17,112 nucleotides of DNA, from contig CP070758.1 in the NCBI GenBank assembly GCA_020348925.1, positions 853,849 to 870,960 of the forward strand. The letters run 5' to 3'. Source of the stretch: Gemmatimonadota bacterium. Its GTDB lineage: Bacteria; JBHIER01; G020348925. A program made the position numbers and the translations under genes. The notes below the pieces were generated by a model. It had not been told where the DNA came from, did not search any database, and was given only the letters and a program-made list of their open reading frames with translations. Of the stretch, positions 2,067 through 15,097 are shown one piece after another. Every line of letters begins with the position of its first letter. The first letter of the stretch is position 1.

Positions 2067-2432
2067 ATAGGTTGAACTTGGAGTCCACGAGGTTTAGAGC
2101 TTAAATTTTAAATATTGAGAGTAAAAAAGACACTCTTGTAAAAGGGGGGGAGGATTAATCTCTCTGAGTTTGAATTATTACAAAATAATCCCATAAAGAG
2201 TGCTGAGAAAAATTTAATTTTGAAGGGTCGATCCTGGTAGAGAGTCCCCGAATTTCTGGACAAAGCCTCGGTGCGGTTCAAGAGCAATTGACTACGACTG
2301 CACCCGAAGTTGGGGGCGGTGTTCTCTCGAGCGTTTTGAGAGTTCATGACGTTTTTTCTCAATTTCATAACTCGGACTCTTTCCTCCGGGACGGGTGGGT
2401 CTCGCGTTTGCCGTAACATGAGAATTATTGAG
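2067..2432. other. Intergenic region with no supported gene
   Basis: This 366-base gap separates the hydrolase from the next gene. It contains a short hairpin, GAGAGT (2117-2122) with ACTCTT (2132-2137), not followed by a T run, and a run of seven G at 2144-2150. An open frame on the minus strand covers most of the gap but resembles no family and runs into the next gene's start. From about 2220 onward the sequence becomes GC-richer, suggesting a boundary between DNA of different origins. No RNA gene or clear promoter was recognised. Confidence 0.5.
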
Positions 2433-3341
2433 ATGAAGAAAATCCATTTCTTAAAAAGTTCAGACCAAATTTTCCTGGGGATGTGCGTCTCTGTCACAAT
2501 TGTCTTTATATTACTTTTTGCGGTTGGGGCTGTTGCGAGAATAAATTTGCCGCAGCTTTCAGATACACTTCAGGTTGCGAAAGAAGATCAAGATCGTTTA
2601 ATCAATTATTTTGAGGGGTTTGAGGGTTACTCTGATATTGAAATTGAAAAGGATGTAGAGAAAATTTTACTCAACGCCTTGAAAGGTATATATGATTCTG
2701 CCTGCTCGGAGATGATTTCCTACTGGGGAACAGTAGCCGAGGGAACAGCAACCCTTACTGTTCGTGTTGTTTTTATACACACTGACACAGTTTCTACGAA
2801 AAGAGGTGTACTCTTCACAATTAAATGTCATTCCAAGTACAAAGAATACGGAGAGAAATATTGCGATGAAAGACTGGCTGTACTCTCGACTGCACCGGGA
2901 AATGCATCCATCATATTGCTGCCTCATGCTGAGGATTGTAAAAATTGCTCTGAGTTATCAAGCATAAAATTCGAGCAAATAGTACAGAGGAATCCTCTCA
3001 TTATTGTTTTATCTATCAGGACCACAAACGATAATCCCTGCTGTGGGGGGGCTTATGCGTATAGCGACGAGAAAGTTTATTATTATGCCTTTCTTGAATC
3101 GGGAATAAAACAGGTGGCTTCCGTCGTTCGATACCGGTCTGAATACTCACATGATGATGTCGAGGGGGATTACAGTAAGATTTATGAATCAAAAATAAGG
3201 TATGCATCGGACCCGACGGGAAGCAGTACCCGGATAATTTCAGAATACGTAATCACAACGAACGGTGTTGAGGAAGGGAGTGGCACACAATCCTATTTTT
3301 GGAATTCGGAAAATGAGGAATTTGAAATCATGCAGAAGTAG
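2433..3341 (+). CDS. Membrane-anchored protein of unknown function
   Basis: The protein is not recognised. The start is placed at ATG 2433, which gives MKKIHFLKSS directly before a single hydrophobic segment at about residues 12-34. The frame is open further upstream (ATG 2418 and earlier), but that extension reads like non-coding sequence. The predicted protein is 302 residues: one N-terminal membrane anchor or uncleaved signal, then a largely extracytoplasmic domain rich in beta-forming stretches. It has a cluster of cysteines, including CKNC and a CC pair in NPCCGG, that could form disulfides or bind metal. The C-terminal third is rich in Tyr, Ser and acidic residues. Only a weak ribosome site is visible. 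Neighbours give no functional hint, and the gene sits in the accessory part of the window. Confidence 0.65.
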   Translation: MKKIHFLKSSDQIFLGMCVSVTIVFILLFAVGAVARINLPQLSDTLQVAKEDQDRLINYFEGFEGYSDIEIEKDVEKILLNALKGIYDSACSEMISYWGTVAEGTATLTVRVVFIHTDTVSTKRGVLFTIKCHSKYKEYGEKYCDERLAVLSTAPGNASIILLPHAEDCKNCSELSSIKFEQIVQRNPLIIVLSIRTTNDNPCCGGAYAYSDEKVYYYAFLESGIKQVASVVRYRSEYSHDDVEGDYSKIYESKIRYASDPTGSSTRIISEYVITTNGVEEGSGTQSYFWNSENEEFEIMQK

Positions 3342-4243: not shown

Positions 4244-4445
4244 AGTTTCACTTCGACGGGGTGGCACACTGCACGTCAGTCAGCAATCACAATGTCCATT
4301 TTATACCGCATACCGGAGCTTGTTCTTTTTTGGTTTTTCTACGTTCACTCGTGTTGGTCAACCAGCCCGGTGAGCTTGGTCGTTACCCGTTTGAGAGAAG
4401 TTCATTTAAATTCCTATTAAACTCTAAGCGTTTCGTGGGATGTTG

Positions 4446-4451
4446 TATAAT
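4446..4451 (+). promoter_or_regulatory. Possible -10 element before the secreted orphan gene
   Basis: A perfect TATAAT lies 18 bases before the chosen ATG. No good -35 box is found 16-18 bases upstream. A start about seven bases downstream would leave a leader of only about 12 bases that contains the GGAGG ribosome site, which is short but possible. Confidence 0.3.
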
Positions 4452-4469
4452 ATTTTTTGGAGGAAGAAA

Positions 4470-5264
4470 ATGAAAACTTACTTATCGATTTCTGTCTTTG
4501 TTTTCTGGTATAGCATCGGTCATTTGTTTGCGCAAGATACATCACACGTTACAGCACAAGGCACATTACCTGATAATCACCTTCTATTCTCTTTACACTT
4601 ACTCAACGATAAATTGGAGGGAGCAAATGAATATTTGGAAGGATTTAAAGTTTCAATGGATCTCCCCCATCGCTATTTACAGCAAGGATTAGATGGAGAC
4701 AGTTTATTGTCGGCAGTTCGAAATCGGGAAATAAGGGGCACCCTGACGTATCCAAACGGAAAAACGACTCCGATAAAATATGAAGTTGTCCATCACAGAG
4801 AAACCGAAGATATTTATATGAAAACAACATTGGGTTATTTTTTGTGGGAAAGTGTAGCCATTCGAAATGATACATTGTTTTTTGTTATTGATTGGTGGTA
4901 CTGCCCTCCTGCCCGTAAAGTTGATTTAGAAACTTTGGAATTGGCCGAGCAACTCTTAGGGAATCCAAACAATTGGCATAAAAACGATGACAGAAAGTGC
5001 GAGGATGATATTGAAAGTAATCGGTGGAGTCTTTTTTGTGCTTTAAAATACGCCTCAATCGAGATAATGGGTGAATACAATCATCATAATACTGCTATGC
5101 AGACAGTGAGATTCGTAATAGATGATATAATCCCTGCTCACGGATTCGAACATACTCTGATGGATTACAACAATTCACCATTAACGAAGCATGAGAATAT
5201 TTTAAATGTTATAGATGTTGCTCAGAAAAGAGTGAAACAAGAACTGGAGAAAATTGACAATTGA
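4470..5264 (+). CDS. Secreted protein of unknown function
   Basis: A 264-residue protein that I do not recognise. The start is ATG 4470, preceded by GGAGG seven bases upstream; an earlier in-frame start at 4440 would add residues before the signal peptide and lacks a ribosome site. Residues 1-22 form a signal peptide ending in LFAQD, so the mature protein is probably periplasmic or secreted. The middle contains paired aromatic residues (FVIDWWYCPP, about 138-147) and three cysteines (CPP, KCED, FCAL), and the C-terminal region is helical and charged. The gene is AT-rich and the signal peptide end is typical of Bacteroidota proteins, so transfer into this genome is likely. Neighbours do not indicate a role. 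Confidence 0.75.
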   Translation: MKTYLSISVFVFWYSIGHLFAQDTSHVTAQGTLPDNHLLFSLHLLNDKLEGANEYLEGFKVSMDLPHRYLQQGLDGDSLLSAVRNREIRGTLTYPNGKTTPIKYEVVHHRETEDIYMKTTLGYFLWESVAIRNDTLFFVIDWWYCPPARKVDLETLELAEQLLGNPNNWHKNDDRKCEDDIESNRWSLFCALKYASIEIMGEYNHHNTAMQTVRFVIDDIIPAHGFEHTLMDYNNSPLTKHENILNVIDVAQKRVKQELEKIDN

Positions 5265-6048: not shown

Positions 6049-6091
6049 TTACTATGTTGTTTGAAAGGAAACATTGGGGAGTGTATCTGAT

Positions 6092-6466
6092 ATGGAGATT
6101 CGAGAGATAGACGAGCTGACAGACCGCAGGGAACTCAAAAAAGGGCAGAAAGTTGAATTGCTGCGCGATTTCTACGACACTACCGATTTGAGTGAAGACC
6201 GGAAGCCCGTCCATAGAATGGGCGACGTCGGAAAAATCAATGGCTTTGGAGAAATTTACAGCCAGGAGATCGTGACTGTGGAGATATGCCATCACGGCCT
6301 GGGTATCTTTGAGGTCGTTCCCCTCCGCCCCTCCGATGTAAAGATTGCTCCAGATGAGACGCCAGTCACAGAGCCCGATCAAAGGCTCGATGATCCGGAC
6401 GAATCCCCCCAGAGCCTGGAGGAGGATCAGCCCGTCATCCTTTTGGATATAAAGAAAGCTGAGTAA
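6092..6466 (+). CDS. Small SH3-like hypothetical protein with acidic tail
   Basis: A 124-residue protein, not assigned to a named family. The chosen start is ATG 6092, with GGGGAG about ten bases upstream; TTG 6074 would add six residues and is possible. Residues about 15-85 read like a small beta barrel of the KOW/SH3 kind: KKGQKVELLRDF, then a RMGDVGKINGFGE turn, then a strand with VTVEIC and GLGIFEVVPLRPSDVKI. The last 40 residues are acidic and proline-rich and probably disordered. There is no signal peptide or membrane segment, so it is probably cytoplasmic. It stands alone behind a promoter-like site and 300 bases ahead of the yggS run. Function is unknown. Confidence 0.7.
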   Translation: MEIREIDELTDRRELKKGQKVELLRDFYDTTDLSEDRKPVHRMGDVGKINGFGEIYSQEIVTVEICHHGLGIFEVVPLRPSDVKIAPDETPVTEPDQRLDDPDESPQSLEEDQPVILLDIKKAE

Positions 6467-9198: not shown

Positions 9199-10020
9199 AT
9201 GCCGGAATTGAGAGAACAGATTGCCGAATCAGTGACATTCGTTCGTTCACAAACCGGAACTGAGCCTGAAATCGGGATTATTCTGGGGACGGGTCTGGGA
9301 GCTCTGGCCGATGACGTTGAGAAAGAAGCGGTTATCCCTTACAAGGAGATCCCCCATTTTCCCACCTCAACACTCTCTTTCCACGCCGGACAGCTCATTC
9401 TGGGTACGTTAAACGGAAAGAGGCTTGTAGCAATGGAGGGCAGGTCCCATCATTATGAGGGATACACTTTGAAGCAGATCACATTTCCGGTGAGGGTCAT
9501 GAAGGCTCTCGGGGCACAGACACTCATTGTTTCCACCGCCTGCGGGGCGATGAACCCTCAGTTTCAACCGGGTGACATTATGATCATTACCGATCACATC
9601 AATCTTTTTGGTGATAATCCTCTGATCGGACCGAACGACGACGAGCTCGGGCCGCGTTTTCCGGACATGTGCGAGGCGTACAGTCGGGAGTTGATCGCTC
9701 TGACGGAACAAGTGGCTTTGGCAGAGCGGATCAGAGTACAAAGGGGAATCTATGCGGCCATGACAGGCCCGAGCTTGGAGACGGCCGCAGAATATAGATT
9801 TCTGAGAATAATCGGGGCCGACGTTGTCGGTATGTCCGCAGTGTCAGAGGTGATCGTCGCCGTCCACTCCGGGATGAAAGTGTTGGGCCTCGCCGTGGTC
9901 ACCGATATCTGTCTGCCGGATCACCTCGAAAAAGCGGACATCGAAGGTATCATCAGGACGGCCGAAGAGGCCGAACCGAAGCTGACCACAATCATACGAC
10001 AGGTTGTGGAGCGCATGTGA
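9199..10020 (+). CDS. Purine nucleoside phosphorylase (trimeric PNP/MTAP superfamily)
   Basis: A 273-residue phosphorylase that splits purine nucleosides with phosphate to give free base and ribose-1-phosphate (salvage). Family motifs appear in order: GTGLG (31-35), HAGQL (62-66), GRSHHYEGY (81-89), GDIMIITDHINL (125-136), GPSLETAAEYR (190-200), GADVVGMSAVSEVIVA (206-221) and LAVVTD (231-236). E194 matches the base-binding glutamate of PNP (E201 in human). The position of human N243 is Asp here (D236), a feature of 6-aminopurine or methylthioadenosine enzymes, and L193 replaces the Phe of GPSFET. Base preference is therefore uncertain. The length fits. ATG 9199 has a modest AAAGAG site. It lies 24 bases after yggU and 36 before ileS, clearly in the same run. 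Confidence 0.92.
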   Translation: MPELREQIAESVTFVRSQTGTEPEIGIILGTGLGALADDVEKEAVIPYKEIPHFPTSTLSFHAGQLILGTLNGKRLVAMEGRSHHYEGYTLKQITFPVRVMKALGAQTLIVSTACGAMNPQFQPGDIMIITDHINLFGDNPLIGPNDDELGPRFPDMCEAYSRELIALTEQVALAERIRVQRGIYAAMTGPSLETAAEYRFLRIIGADVVGMSAVSEVIVAVHSGMKVLGLAVVTDICLPDHLEKADIEGIIRTAEEAEPKLTTIIRQVVERM

Positions 10021-10056: not shown

Positions 10057-13000
10057 ATGTTTCGAGACGTAACGACGCACCTTGATTTTCCGAAACTTGA
10101 AAAGAGGATCTTAGAATTTTGGGAGAGAGAGGGGATCTTTCAAAAGAGTCTGGATCAGCGGGCCGACGGTGAGGGTTTTGTCTTCTTCGAAGGACCCCCG
10201 ACAGCCAACGGTAAGCCTGGTGTGCATCACGTTCAGTCAAGAACGTTCAAGGACTTCGTCTGCCGGTATAAGACGATGAAAGGGTTTCAAGTTTTGAGAA
10301 AAGGGGGGTGGGACACTCACGGCCTACCGGTCGAGATCGAGGTGGAGAAAGAGCTCGGTCTGAAGTCGAAGGATCAGGTCATTGAGTACGGCATTGATCG
10401 TTTTAATGCGAAATGCAAGGAGAGCGTCTTTCGTTACGAAAAAGAGTGGCGGGAGGTGACCCGGCGGATCGGTTTTTGGCTGGATATGGAGCACGCATAT
10501 ATCACCTGCACCAACGACTATATCGAATCGGTGTGGTGGAGTCTGAAACAATTCTGGAAGGATGGTAAAATTTACCGCGGTCATAAAATACTGCCTTTCT
10601 GTCCCCGTTGCGGTACACCGCTCTCCAGCCACGAAGTGGCCCAGGCTTATAAGGACGTGACAGAACCTTCCGTCTACGTGAAGATGAAACTGGCGGATGA
10701 GGAGAACACCTATTTCCTCGTCTGGACGACAACACCTTGGACTCTCATCTCAAATGTTGCCCTGGCCGTGCATCCGGGCTCAGAATATGCCAAGGTGAAG
10801 GTGGGCGATGAATATTGGATCCTGGCTTTTTCACGACTCGAGGTTCTTGACGAGAAATACGAAGTGGTCGAGCGATGCAAGGGCAGTGCTCTCAAGGGGG
10901 TAAGATACGAGCCGCTCTTCACATTTTCTGAGACGGACAAATCCGCTTTCTATGTGGCCACCGCTGATTTTGTGACCATGGGGGAGGGGACGGGGATCGT
11001 GCATATAGCTCCGGCCTTTGGGGAGGACGATTACAACTTGGGAAAAGAGTACGATCTGCCCATTGTCCAACCGGTGGATGAACGGGGTGCCTTCACCGAT
11101 GAAGTGACACCGTGGGCGGACCGGTTTGTGAAGGATGCTGATGCGGAGATCATGGAGGATCTGAAGGGACGAAACCGGTTGTATAAGATCGTCGACTACC
11201 TCCATAGTTACCCTCACTGCTGGCGCTGCGACACGCCGTTGCTCTATTACGCCCGGGCGTCGTGGTTTATTCGCACGACGGCCTTCAAGGATCGGCTCAT
11301 CGCTCGGAACAGCGAAATTCACTGGTACCCCAGAGAGGTTGGATCGGGGCGGTTTGGCGACTGGCTGGAGAACAACGTCGACTGGGCACTCAGTCGCGAT
11401 CGTTTTTGGGGGACGCCGCTGAATATATGGATCTGCGCTCAATGTGGGCAGGAACACAGTGTTGAGAGTCTGAAGGCATTGAGACAATTGAATCCGGAGG
11501 TTCCTGAGGATCTCGATCTCCATCGGCCTTTCGTTGATGCCGTGTCGTTTCCCTGTGCATCCTGCGGTGGAGAGATGAGGAGGACACCGGAAGTGATTGA
11601 TGCCTGGTTTGATTCCGGTTCCATGCCTTTTGCCCAGTGGCATTATCCCTTCGAGAACACGGAGATTTTTGACGAAAACTTCCCCGCCGATTTTATCAGT
11701 GAGGGGATCGATCAGACCCGGGGTTGGTTTTACTCGCTGCTGACGATTGCGGCCTTTCTCTTTGACAAGCCGTGTTTTAAAAATTGTGTGGTCACAGAGC
11801 TCGTTCTGGATAAAGAGGGCCTGAAGATGAGTAAATCCCGGGGAAATGTCGTCGATCCCTGGCAGGTCCTGGAGACCCAGGGTGCCGACCCTCTGAGGTG
11901 GTACCTCATGACGGTCAGTCCGCCGTGGGTGCCCACATGCTTCGATTACGAAGGCGTTGCGGAAGTGACCCGGAAACTCTTCGGAACCCTGATGAACGTT
12001 TACTCATTTTTCGTCTTGTATGCCAATATCGATGGATTCGAGCCAAGCGAGGTCACAATCGCAGTGGCTGACAGACCGGAAATCGATCGCTGGATCACCT
12101 CCAGGCTCCATTCAATGTTGAAGGCAGTCAACGAGTATTTGGAACGGTATGATATTACGAAAGCAGCGCGTCTGATTCAAAATTTTATCATTGACGATCT
12201 TTCGAATTGGTATGTTCGACGATGCCGACGCCGTTTCTGGAAATCGGAACTGAACGCGGATAAGAATTCGGCTTATCTTACGTTGTACGATGTCCTGGTA
12301 ACAACCGTCAAAATGTTGGCACCCTTTGCACCGTTCATATCCGAAGATATCTATCAGAATATCGTGCGTTCGATATCGGAAAAGGTGAGTGAGAGCATCC
12401 ATTTATGTCAGTATCCTGAAGCCGACGTTGGACGTATTGACGTAAGTTTGGAGTCCAGAATGGGCGCAGTTCAAAGCATCGTCGTCTTGGGTCGGGCGGC
12501 GAGAAACAGGTCTGGCATTAAGGTGCGGCAGCCGCTGCCGAAAGTGTCGGTCGTTTATACGGGCGACGGGGAGCAACCCGACGTCGGGGATATGGAATCG
12601 CTCATTTCGGAGGAGTTGAATGTGAAGGAGATTCGCTTTCTGGCGCAGAAGGAGAATCTCTATGTCTTGAAGGCGAAACCGAATTTCAAGACCCTCGGGC
12701 CGAAGTTCGGAGGGGACGTAAACACAATTGCCCAAGCGATCAAGGAGCTTGCTCCTGAAGACGTGGCTCAAGTAAAAACTGCGGGAAGCGTGTCGCTCCC
12801 TGTGCAGGATCAGGTGATTGAGATACGCCTTGAAGATGTTGAAATTACAAGTGCCGAAGGTGAGGGATGTATTATTGAGGAGGACGGTCAGTTTGCCCTC
12901 AGTCTCGATACTCTTATTACGGAGGAGTTGAGAGATGAAGGATATGCTCGAGAATTCGTGAACAGAACTCAGGCCACGAGAAAGCATGCCGGCTTTAACG

Positions 13001-13191
13001 TTACCGACCGAATACATATCTCTTTTCAGGCCTCGGAACGGCTGAAGAAAGCCATTCAGGCAATGGAGCAGTATATCAAGGAGGAGACATTAGCGTTAAC
13101 GATTGTTCCTGAGGAACGCGCAGGCATGTTTCGGAAGGAATGGGACATAGATGGTGAAAACGTCATCATAGGTGTAGAAAGAACACACTGA
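10057..13191 (+). CDS. ileS: Isoleucyl-tRNA synthetase, eukaryote-like type (IleRS2), with GVHH signature
   Basis: A 1044-residue class I synthetase that charges tRNA-Ile. The sequence from GPPTANG through GWDTHGLPVEIEVEKELG, and the overall length, fit the IleRS2 branch rather than the common bacterial IleRS1. The KMSKS loop is exact (590-594). The CP1 editing domain has its Thr-rich loop WTTTPWTL (223-230) and GEDDY (322-326). Cysteine pairs CPRC (182-185), CWRC (388-391), and later CAQC and CASC suggest zinc sites. The HxGH ATP-binding signature reads GVHH at residues 55-58 (10219-10230), with the first and third positions exchanged. This swap is known from some IleRS2 enzymes and goes with extreme mupirocin resistance. 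ATG 10057 follows GGAG by nine bases. No T-box fits in the 36-base gap upstream. Confidence 0.97.
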   Translation: MFRDVTTHLDFPKLEKRILEFWEREGIFQKSLDQRADGEGFVFFEGPPTANGKPGVHHVQSRTFKDFVCRYKTMKGFQVLRKGGWDTHGLPVEIEVEKELGLKSKDQVIEYGIDRFNAKCKESVFRYEKEWREVTRRIGFWLDMEHAYITCTNDYIESVWWSLKQFWKDGKIYRGHKILPFCPRCGTPLSSHEVAQAYKDVTEPSVYVKMKLADEENTYFLVWTTTPWTLISNVALAVHPGSEYAKVKVGDEYWILAFSRLEVLDEKYEVVERCKGSALKGVRYEPLFTFSETDKSAFYVATADFVTMGEGTGIVHIAPAFGEDDYNLGKEYDLPIVQPVDERGAFTDEVTPWADRFVKDADAEIMEDLKGRNRLYKIVDYLHSYPHCWRCDTPLLYYARASWFIRTTAFKDRLIARNSEIHWYPREVGSGRFGDWLENNVDWALSRDRFWGTPLNIWICAQCGQEHSVESLKALRQLNPEVPEDLDLHRPFVDAVSFPCASCGGEMRRTPEVIDAWFDSGSMPFAQWHYPFENTEIFDENFPADFISEGIDQTRGWFYSLLTIAAFLFDKPCFKNCVVTELVLDKEGLKMSKSRGNVVDPWQVLETQGADPLRWYLMTVSPPWVPTCFDYEGVAEVTRKLFGTLMNVYSFFVLYANIDGFEPSEVTIAVADRPEIDRWITSRLHSMLKAVNEYLERYDITKAARLIQNFIIDDLSNWYVRRCRRRFWKSELNADKNSAYLTLYDVLVTTVKMLAPFAPFISEDIYQNIVRSISEKVSESIHLCQYPEADVGRIDVSLESRMGAVQSIVVLGRAARNRSGIKVRQPLPKVSVVYTGDGEQPDVGDMESLISEELNVKEIRFLAQKENLYVLKAKPNFKTLGPKFGGDVNTIAQAIKELAPEDVAQVKTAGSVSLPVQDQVIEIRLEDVEITSAEGEGCIIEEDGQFALSLDTLITEELRDEGYAREFVNRTQATRKHAGFNVTDRIHISFQASERLKKAIQAMEQYIKEETLALTIVPEERAGMFRKEWDIDGENVIIGVERTH

Positions 13192-13223: not shown

Positions 13224-13598
13224 ATGAACAAACGGGACCGAGAATTTTTCAGGAAATTGATACTGGAAAAGCGAGAGAAGCTCATGAAGGAGCTCGGTTA
13301 CCTGGAGAATACCGTATTGACTGCTACGACGAAGGAGTCCTCCGGTGATCTCTCTTCGTATTCTTTTCACATGGCCGATCAGGGTACTGATGCCGAGGAG
13401 CGCGAGAAGGCTTTTCTCTTGGCTTCCCGCGAAGGGCGCTATATATACCATCTCAACGAAGCCCTGAGACGTCTCGACGATGGGACCTATGGCAAATGTG
13501 CTGTGTGCGGATGTCAGATAAAGAAGGAACGTTTGAAGGCTGTTCCTCATGCTACGAAATGCATCACATGCAAGTCGAAAGAGGAGAGAGGCGAATAG
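13224..13598 (+). CDS. DksA/TraR-family C4 zinc-finger protein
   Basis: A 124-residue protein of the DksA/TraR family, which enters the secondary channel of RNA polymerase and alters transcription, often with ppGpp. Two N-terminal helices form the coiled coil (about 1-85), with an acidic tip ADQGTDAEER near 51-60. The C4 zinc finger uses C92, C95, C113 and C116, in GKCAVCGCQI and TKCITCK. It is shorter than E. coli DksA (151) and close to the small family members found next to ileS-lspA in many deltaproteobacteria. ATG 13224 follows AAAGGAG at slightly long spacing. It lies 32 bases after ileS and 58 before lspA. Whether it is the genome's main DksA or a paralogue cannot be judged from the window. 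Confidence 0.92.
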   Translation: MNKRDREFFRKLILEKREKLMKELGYLENTVLTATTKESSGDLSSYSFHMADQGTDAEEREKAFLLASREGRYIYHLNEALRRLDDGTYGKCAVCGCQIKKERLKAVPHATKCITCKSKEERGE

Positions 13599-13656: not shown

Positions 13657-14130
13657 TTGTCAGAAAAAAGTCGATTCGGTGTGGTCCCTTGGGTTGCCTT
13701 TCTTCTGACCCTTGTATTGGACCAGGCGACCAAGGTCTTTGTCCAGAACTCATTGCACCGGGGGGAATCGATTCAGGTTGTGGGTTCGTATGTTAAAATC
13801 ACATACATCCATAACCCGAAAGGTGCTTTTGGATTACCGATTGGTGGAAAACTGTTTTTCGTCATCTTTTCCATTTTGGCGAGTCTCTTCATTCTGTACT
13901 ACCTGTTTAAAATACCGAAACAAAAAATATGGTCCAAAGGAGCATTGGCCCTTATTCTCGGGGGTGCTGTCGGCAATCTCATCGATCGATTCCGTTTGGG
14001 AGAGGTTATCGATTTTATAGACGTGGGGGTTCGCGCCACACGCTGGCCGATCTTTAATGTAGCCGATAGCGCTGTCACGATCGGAGTGATCCTTCTCCTG
14101 TATGCGTTGCTGTTGAAGAAGGAGTCGTAG
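13657..14130 (+). CDS. lspA: Lipoprotein signal peptidase (signal peptidase II)
   Basis: A 157-residue inner-membrane aspartyl protease that removes the signal peptide from prolipoproteins. Four transmembrane helices are visible (about 8-26, 65-84, 94-108, 133-153). The conserved LDQATK (21-26), GGAVGNLIDR (102-111) and FNVADSAV (133-140) motifs are present. The catalytic aspartates are D110 and D137, equivalent to D114 and D141 of E. coli. The loop usually read as N-x-GAAF is HNPKGAFG here. TTG 13657 is used as the start, with a GGGGG run about five bases upstream; nearby ATG codons are out of frame. The gene stops one base before the rluD-type gene. ileS-lspA linkage is widespread in proteobacteria. 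Confidence 0.95.
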   Translation: MSEKSRFGVVPWVAFLLTLVLDQATKVFVQNSLHRGESIQVVGSYVKITYIHNPKGAFGLPIGGKLFFVIFSILASLFILYYLFKIPKQKIWSKGALALILGGAVGNLIDRFRLGEVIDFIDVGVRATRWPIFNVADSAVTIGVILLLYALLLKKES

Positions 14131-14131
14131 T

Positions 14132-15097
14132 ATGGAAAAAAGGCTGAAGGTGGTGGTTCCGAAAAAGGTAAAGCCGAAAAGAATTGATCTCTACCTTGTG
14201 GACTTCAAGAAGGGCATCTCAAGAAATCTCATACACAAACTGATCTCCGAGGCCCATATTACGGTCAACGGACTTCCAGTGAAAGCCCATCATCTCGTGA
14301 GACCTGGCGAGGAAATCGAAATCTTCTTCCCTGAACCTGAGAAGCCGTCCATTGATCCGGAGGATATCCCTCTGGATATCTTCTATGAAGATGAGGCTTT
14401 ATTGGTCGTCGATAAACCGGCGGGCATGGTTGTTCACCCTGGAGCGGGAAACTTCGCAGGTACTTTGGTCAATGCCCTTCTGCATCACTGCAATCACCTT
14501 TCAACCTTGGGTGGTCCATTGCGCATGGGTATTGTCCACCGTCTGGACAAAGATACATCGGGTTTATTAGTCGTAGCCAAAACAGACAGCGCTCATTTAA
14601 ATTTAGCGCGGCAGTTGCAGTTTCGCACAGTAAGACGTCAATATCTTGCCATCGTCTGGGGTACTTTTGATGAACCGTGGGGTCGGATTGAAGTGCCAAT
14701 AGGAAGGGATCGCATCGATCGGAAAAAGATGACTGTAGCTCCGATCTACGGTCGAATTGCTGCGACGAACTTCGATGTGTTGGAGCGGTTCGGATTATGT
14801 TCGTACATATCGTTGGAGCTTGAGACGGGTCGTACACATCAGATTCGGGTACACTTGGCCCATATCGACCATCCTGTCTTTGGTGATCCCCAATATGGAG
14901 GCCGCCGGAAGAAACTGGGCGGCTTGAGTCCGAAGAAGCGAGATCGGGCTGCGGAATTCCTCAGGTTGATGCCTCGTCAAGCACTCCACGCGGCAGGGCT
15001 CGGATTCGTCCATCCTGACACCGGCAGGAAGATGGATTTCTGTTCCGACCTCCCTGACGACATGGCCAGCCTTTTGGCGACGCTTCGGGCCGGCTAA
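14132..15097 (+). CDS. rluD: RluD-family 23S rRNA pseudouridine synthase
   Basis: A 321-residue RluA/RluD-type pseudouridine synthase, which turns specific uridines of rRNA (1911/1915/1917 in helix 69 for RluD itself) into pseudouridine. An S4 RNA-binding domain spans about residues 17-75. The catalytic domain follows, with HRLDKDTSGLLVVAKT (136-151) carrying the nucleophilic D139. The conserved ETGRTHQIRVHLAHIDHPVFGDPQYGG segment also appears (about 231-257). Length and domain order match RluD. ATG 14132 lies one base after the lspA stop, so translation is coupled. lspA-rluD pairs are common in bacteria. The exact target uridines are inferred from the family only. Confidence 0.94.
   Translation: MEKRLKVVVPKKVKPKRIDLYLVDFKKGISRNLIHKLISEAHITVNGLPVKAHHLVRPGEEIEIFFPEPEKPSIDPEDIPLDIFYEDEALLVVDKPAGMVVHPGAGNFAGTLVNALLHHCNHLSTLGGPLRMGIVHRLDKDTSGLLVVAKTDSAHLNLARQLQFRTVRRQYLAIVWGTFDEPWGRIEVPIGRDRIDRKKMTVAPIYGRIAATNFDVLERFGLCSYISLELETGRTHQIRVHLAHIDHPVFGDPQYGGRRKKLGGLSPKKRDRAAEFLRLMPRQALHAAGLGFVHPDTGRKMDFCSDLPDDMASLLATLRAG

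Follow-up and report, generated by a model that had tools for sequence, protein, structure and literature searches.

An inherited housekeeping type 2 isoleucyl-tRNA synthetase carrying the exchanged class I motif GVHH in a Gemmatimonadota bacterium

The ileS gene in a 17,112-nucleotide stretch of a Gemmatimonadota genome (contig CP070758.1; "the window") encodes a type 2 isoleucyl-tRNA synthetase (IleRS2) in which the class I signature HxGH reads GVHH. This gene is, with high confidence, that of an active, inherited housekeeping enzyme in which residues 1 and 3 of the motif are exchanged, with predicted catalysis by His57 and predicted mupirocin binding in the millimolar range. Its sequence, IleRS2 membership, single detected copy, synteny, and tree placement are observed here and are presented below, together with a survey of the motif across bacteria.

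The gene (10057..13191, + strand, as are all features below) starts with ATG, is full-length with no internal stop codons, and codes for 1044 residues; the window contains no ambiguous bases. The motif occupies residues 55-58 (10219..10230, codons GGT GTG CAT CAC), precisely where class I synthetases have HxGH; the surrounding sequence is FFEGPPTANGK-P-GVHH-VQSRTFKD. The motif aligns column-for-column and gapless with the HVGH of PmIleRS2 from P. megaterium (Pm54-57) and of T. thermophilus IleRS2. The register is fixed because the flanking residues FFEGPPTANGKP (before) and VQSRTFKD (after) align as well, and the motif is not a chance match since, besides the register, GxHH stands at the same columns in 47 of the 115 full-length rows of the tree described below. 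Translation and alignment thus agree with the initial annotation, which had read GVHH at codons 55-58 in an otherwise intact enzyme. The second class I signature KMSKS (residues 590-594, 11824..11838), the TTTPWT of the CP1 editing domain (residues 224-229, 10726..10743), and the CxxC pairs at residues 182, 388, 460, and 500 are all present. The best PDB match of the product is 8c8w (8c8w/8c8u, E=0), itself GVHH at the same place, and its sequence fits an engineered mutant of PMC10485003.

Several markers assign the enzyme to IleRS2. The product scores 975.2 bits with TIGR00392, the NCBIfam model for isoleucine-tRNA ligase, against a curated cut-off of 621.4. It carries HYPFE (residues 529-533, 11641..11655), the IleRS2/eukaryote-like marker named in PMC4861432, where the absence of a C-terminal Cys4 cluster and of NKIL also serves as a type criterion. 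In the query protein, the C-terminal Cys4 zinc cluster is absent, the last CxxC being at residue 500, and NKIL has no match. At the site of PmIleRS2 Trp130 the query likewise has Trp, in line with other IleRS2, versus mostly Gln in IleRS1 rows. A C-terminal DUF5915 domain (PF19302, 184.9 bits) spans residues 848-1042 (12598..13182).

Tree reconstruction, by quick trees throughout, places the query with the P. megaterium and T. thermophilus IleRS2 and MupA, apart from IleRS1, the IleRS2 branch having an SH-aLRT support of 100. In a 115-row tree from which the four motif columns had been left out, the query falls in a branch of 38 rows, 37 of which are GxHH; in a later 93-row tree, it lies inside a starred 30-row set from the same kinds of bacteria. 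The alignment and tree with IleRS2 of both motif types, a check that had been proposed beforehand, therefore yield an IleRS2 in a mostly GxHH branch. Its closest named relatives are from Zixibacteria (~56% identity), and none of the sampled relatives has a rank below domain in common with the host. A deep-branching GVHH IleRS has also been observed (L099, genome G034); in it, GPMTANNKM precedes the motif and SMHKS replaces KMSKS.

The first, third, and fourth motif residues (Gly, His, and His) are those that define G/AxHH IleRS2 by sequence. Judged from its sequence, the window ileS is an IleRS2 carrying this published state and, following the description of Brkic et al. 2023 (PMC10485003), a further member of the described kind. 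In that work, G/AxHH was found in 86 of 379 IleRS sequences, every one an IleRS2, with a minimum of two gains and one reversion across the bacteria as a whole. The natural ALHH IleRS2 of D. radiodurans has a mupirocin Ki of 6.6 mM, which falls 823-fold upon conversion to HVGH, while the reverse change in the T. thermophilus and P. megaterium enzymes raises the Ki ~170- to 430-fold (Table 1, PMC10485003). In IleRS1, the motif swap abolishes activity. Structures reveal that the third His occupies the place of the first (PMC10485003). The statement in the initial annotation that GxHH is known in IleRS2 and confers strong mupirocin resistance with activity kept matches this paper; no later papers on the swapped motif were found in the literature searched.

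By homology with the solved IleRS2 structures, His57, at the third position, would supply the catalytic imidazole otherwise provided by the first His; such a substitution would be allowed by the motif helix, whose tip in IleRS2 is shifted away from the adenine. A closed KMSKS loop is a further structural hallmark of the type. The bulky His57 would also clash with bound mupirocin, so that binding of the drug is expected only in the millimolar range. Near-normal activity, His57 as the catalyst, and a millimolar mupirocin Ki are thus expectations drawn from published homologues, and hyper-resistance of the window enzyme is a prediction by homology. In the published enzymes, introducing GVHH worsened kcat and KM by as much as 10-fold, for which reason equal activity of the window enzyme cannot be assumed, and a natural millimolar Ki is cited for two enzymes only, those of S. 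griseus and D. radiodurans (PMC10485003). Resistance at the level of the organism also depends on uptake and on ever meeting the drug.

The G/AxHH IleRS2 of D. radiodurans (ALHH) and S. griseus share with the query the residue-1/3 swap, the IleRS2 background, and the housekeeping role; the window host differs in belonging to an uncultured lineage, known here from sequence, with no phylum-level relatives in the sampled genomes, and its ileS adds one more lineage to the published phenomenon. The HxGH enzymes PmIleRS2 and T. thermophilus IleRS2 have the same domain set, HYPFE, KMSKS, and the Trp at Pm130 at ~50% identity to the query, but possess the canonical HVGH, with published mupirocin Ki values of about 1 and 0.2 micromolar. 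Staphylococcal MupA is likewise of the IleRS2 type (43-44% identity), but it is a plasmid-borne extra copy with HTGH and sits on another branch of the tree. IleRS1 of the E. coli / S. aureus type catalyzes the same reaction with the same class I fold, yet shares only ~30% identity with the query and has GPPYANG before HxGH and a C-terminal zinc cluster.

The locus bears the signs of a housekeeping gene. The ileS gene is preceded by a purine nucleoside phosphorylase gene (PNP; 9199..10020, PF01048) and followed by genes for a TraR/DksA-type zinc-finger protein (13224..13598, PF01258), signal peptidase II (lspA; 13657..14130, PF01252), and a pseudouridine synthase named rluD-like by reading of its sequence (14132..15097). 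The order PNP-ileS-TraR-lspA-rluD is common to loci from Zixibacteria, Ignavibacteria, and Eisenbacteria, including an HTGH Zixibacteria locus (L035); ileS is therefore a housekeeping gene in an old neighbourhood. No RNA element such as a T-box has an Rfam match upstream of ileS in the window. Elsewhere in the window, two open reading frames (2346-3341, 331 aa; 6074-6466, 130 aa) have no Pfam match, and a third (4440-5264) matches DUF6197 in its last third.

A search of the 5.04-Mb assembly (G000) detected no second ileS, the remaining matches being far weaker and identifiable by motif context as ValRS, LeuRS, or MetRS. The assembly is 96.3% complete and has 100-N gaps, which leaves a small chance that one of them hides a second ileS. 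As the sole IleRS detected, the enzyme must be active, provided that the assembly misses no other. The earlier proposal of a main or only housekeeping ileS, and not an acquired copy, is borne out by this single detected copy and the conserved gene order. Around G000:C1:1980000-1998000 (L132), runs of 100 N recur about every 4.3 kb, and a 16S match (model positions 54-354) stops at one; the single contig is therefore a scaffold and not a gapless chromosome.

The swapped motif is widespread. Of 386 bacterial genomes sampled across the domain, 43 (~11%) carry the signature GPPTANGxPGxHH and 24 its HxGH version; as the pattern requires exact GPPTANG codons, both counts are lower bounds. A degenerate pattern admitting the intermediates GxGH and HxHH matched 67 of the 386 genomes, exactly 43+24, and hence no intermediate was seen. 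The IleRS1 signature was present in none of the 43 GxHH genomes, versus 16 of 43 control genomes. Because this signature misses IleRS1 with HxGT, the genomes were searched again with a complete IleRS1 protein: at 1e-60 or better, the GxHH gene was the only match in 40 of the 43, nothing matched in two partial genomes, and a second IleRS-like gene is present in one (G333). GxHH IleRS2 is therefore normally the sole housekeeping enzyme. The initial annotation's interpretation stands in part, as to an IleRS2 with the published state in single copy; the motif itself is not peculiar to this organism. The survey depicts the swapped motif as a common inherited state of the sole housekeeping IleRS2 in uncultured bacteria. 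GxHH is the common state in the query's part of the IleRS2 tree and gives no evidence of mupirocin selection here. By its sequence placement, the GVHH state of the window enzyme is inherited within this large GxHH branch and is not a recent acquisition; it would have been passed down within that branch. In another sampled genome (G028), an IleRS2 with HNGH and a long insert (L100) and an IleRS1-type signature (C79:149093-151561) lie on the same contig.

Zixibacteria offer a closer view of how the motif changes. Genome G009 is assigned to Zixibacteria since the L035 sequence is found in G498, a genome of the same phylum. The degenerate pattern matches 109 of 132 Zixibacteria genomes, 101 with GxHH and 8 with HxGH, and none of the 109 carries a GxGH or HxHH intermediate. 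In a 32-row quick tree, the motif needs at least four changes, counted irrespective of direction, and a single common origin of the HxGH rows, a group chosen by motif, is strongly rejected (AU p = 3e-74). HxGH and GxHH members coexist within families f273 and f275. The HxGH loci (L143-L150, L035) belong to a mostly GxHH phylum and are unchanged as far as their flanks were read. For both families, gene conversion confined to the motif region was considered and set aside: no imported tract is apparent, as the residues adjoining the motif differ no more between a GxHH and an HxGH member than between two GxHH members. Co-varying residues that might explain the swap were also sought; the best columns after the motif (440, 627, 427, 117, and 69) were rejected, and no compensating residue was found, as these columns mostly follow clades and switch inconsistently in the HxGH Zixibacteria row and the Thermus rows.

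It may be proposed, tentatively and at somewhat less than even odds, that HxGH and GxHH form a reversible two-state switch in housekeeping IleRS2, flipped at least four times in Zixibacteria by paired exchange, with no surviving intermediate or sign of drug selection. If this were true, hyper-resistance would come as a side effect of a different catalytic arrangement. Such switching within one gene lineage extends the findings of PMC10485003, and the motif-discordant pairs within Zixibacteria families, at ~66-75% identity, provide natural material on the exchange of catalytic residues and on the role of mupirocin as a driver.

Why the lineage carries GVHH is a matter distinct from what the enzyme is. 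The motif may be a neutral or mechanistically equivalent IleRS2 alternative, its mupirocin insensitivity a by-product never selected in the lineage; we consider this an evenly balanced proposition, and it leaves the identity of the enzyme unaffected. The presence of GxHH in the sole housekeeping IleRS of many bacteria (the 43 genomes above, in which IleRS1 was not found) and the repeated switching in Zixibacteria, with the locus unchanged where its flanks were inspected, are explained by a by-product no less well than by selection through mupirocin-like compounds. The motifs of enzymes tied to the antibiotic point the same way: one staphylococcal MupA reads HTGH and the IleRS on the plasmid of a thiomarinol producer reads HHGH, so the acquired-resistance MupA and the antibiotic-cluster IleRS read here do not use the swap. 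However, this motif evidence comprises one MupA and one producer enzyme only, ancient selection by mupirocin-like compounds is compatible with the sequences, and antibiotic selection is what the authors of PMC10485003 argue for. The producer's enzyme, encoded on pTML1 (L136), has His at three of the four motif positions.

That ileS is instead a mupirocin-resistance gene acquired by horizontal transfer is very improbable. The NCBIfam exception models for MupA and MupB do score the protein (967 and 938 bits), but at about half of their curated cut-off of 1900; moreover, MupA groups with PmIleRS2 in the tree and lies far away from the query, no second ileS was detected in the assembly, and the gene order is shared with relatives, with no mobile-element flanks seen. 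Transfer from a plasmid is rejected given the tree, synteny, and the MupA/MupB cut-offs. Even less credible, to the point of being negligible, is an error of sequencing or assembly, or decay of the gene, a notion that draws on nothing except the oddity of the motif against the textbook HxGH: four or more bases within a 12-base stretch would have to differ to turn any set of HxGH codons into GVHH, the same swap recurs in most of the closest relatives, which come from independent projects, and the frame is open throughout with its motifs intact. The reading of an active, inherited housekeeping IleRS2 is therefore retained.

Two observations concern other organisms and enzymes. Peptoniphilus and a related Firmicutes isolate (L077, L086) possess a GIHH IleRS2 that branches with Cloacimonadota, which looks like horizontal transfer on sequence grounds; mupirocin insensitivity of Peptoniphilus is predicted from this enzyme. 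In the host assembly itself, ValRS (G000:C1:3083966-3086272; L002/L003) has TMGH instead of HMGH, so that, with the IleRS, two of its class I synthetases are without the first His; Thr at that ValRS position occurs in 13 of 192 sampled genomes and is thus uncommon, not unique.
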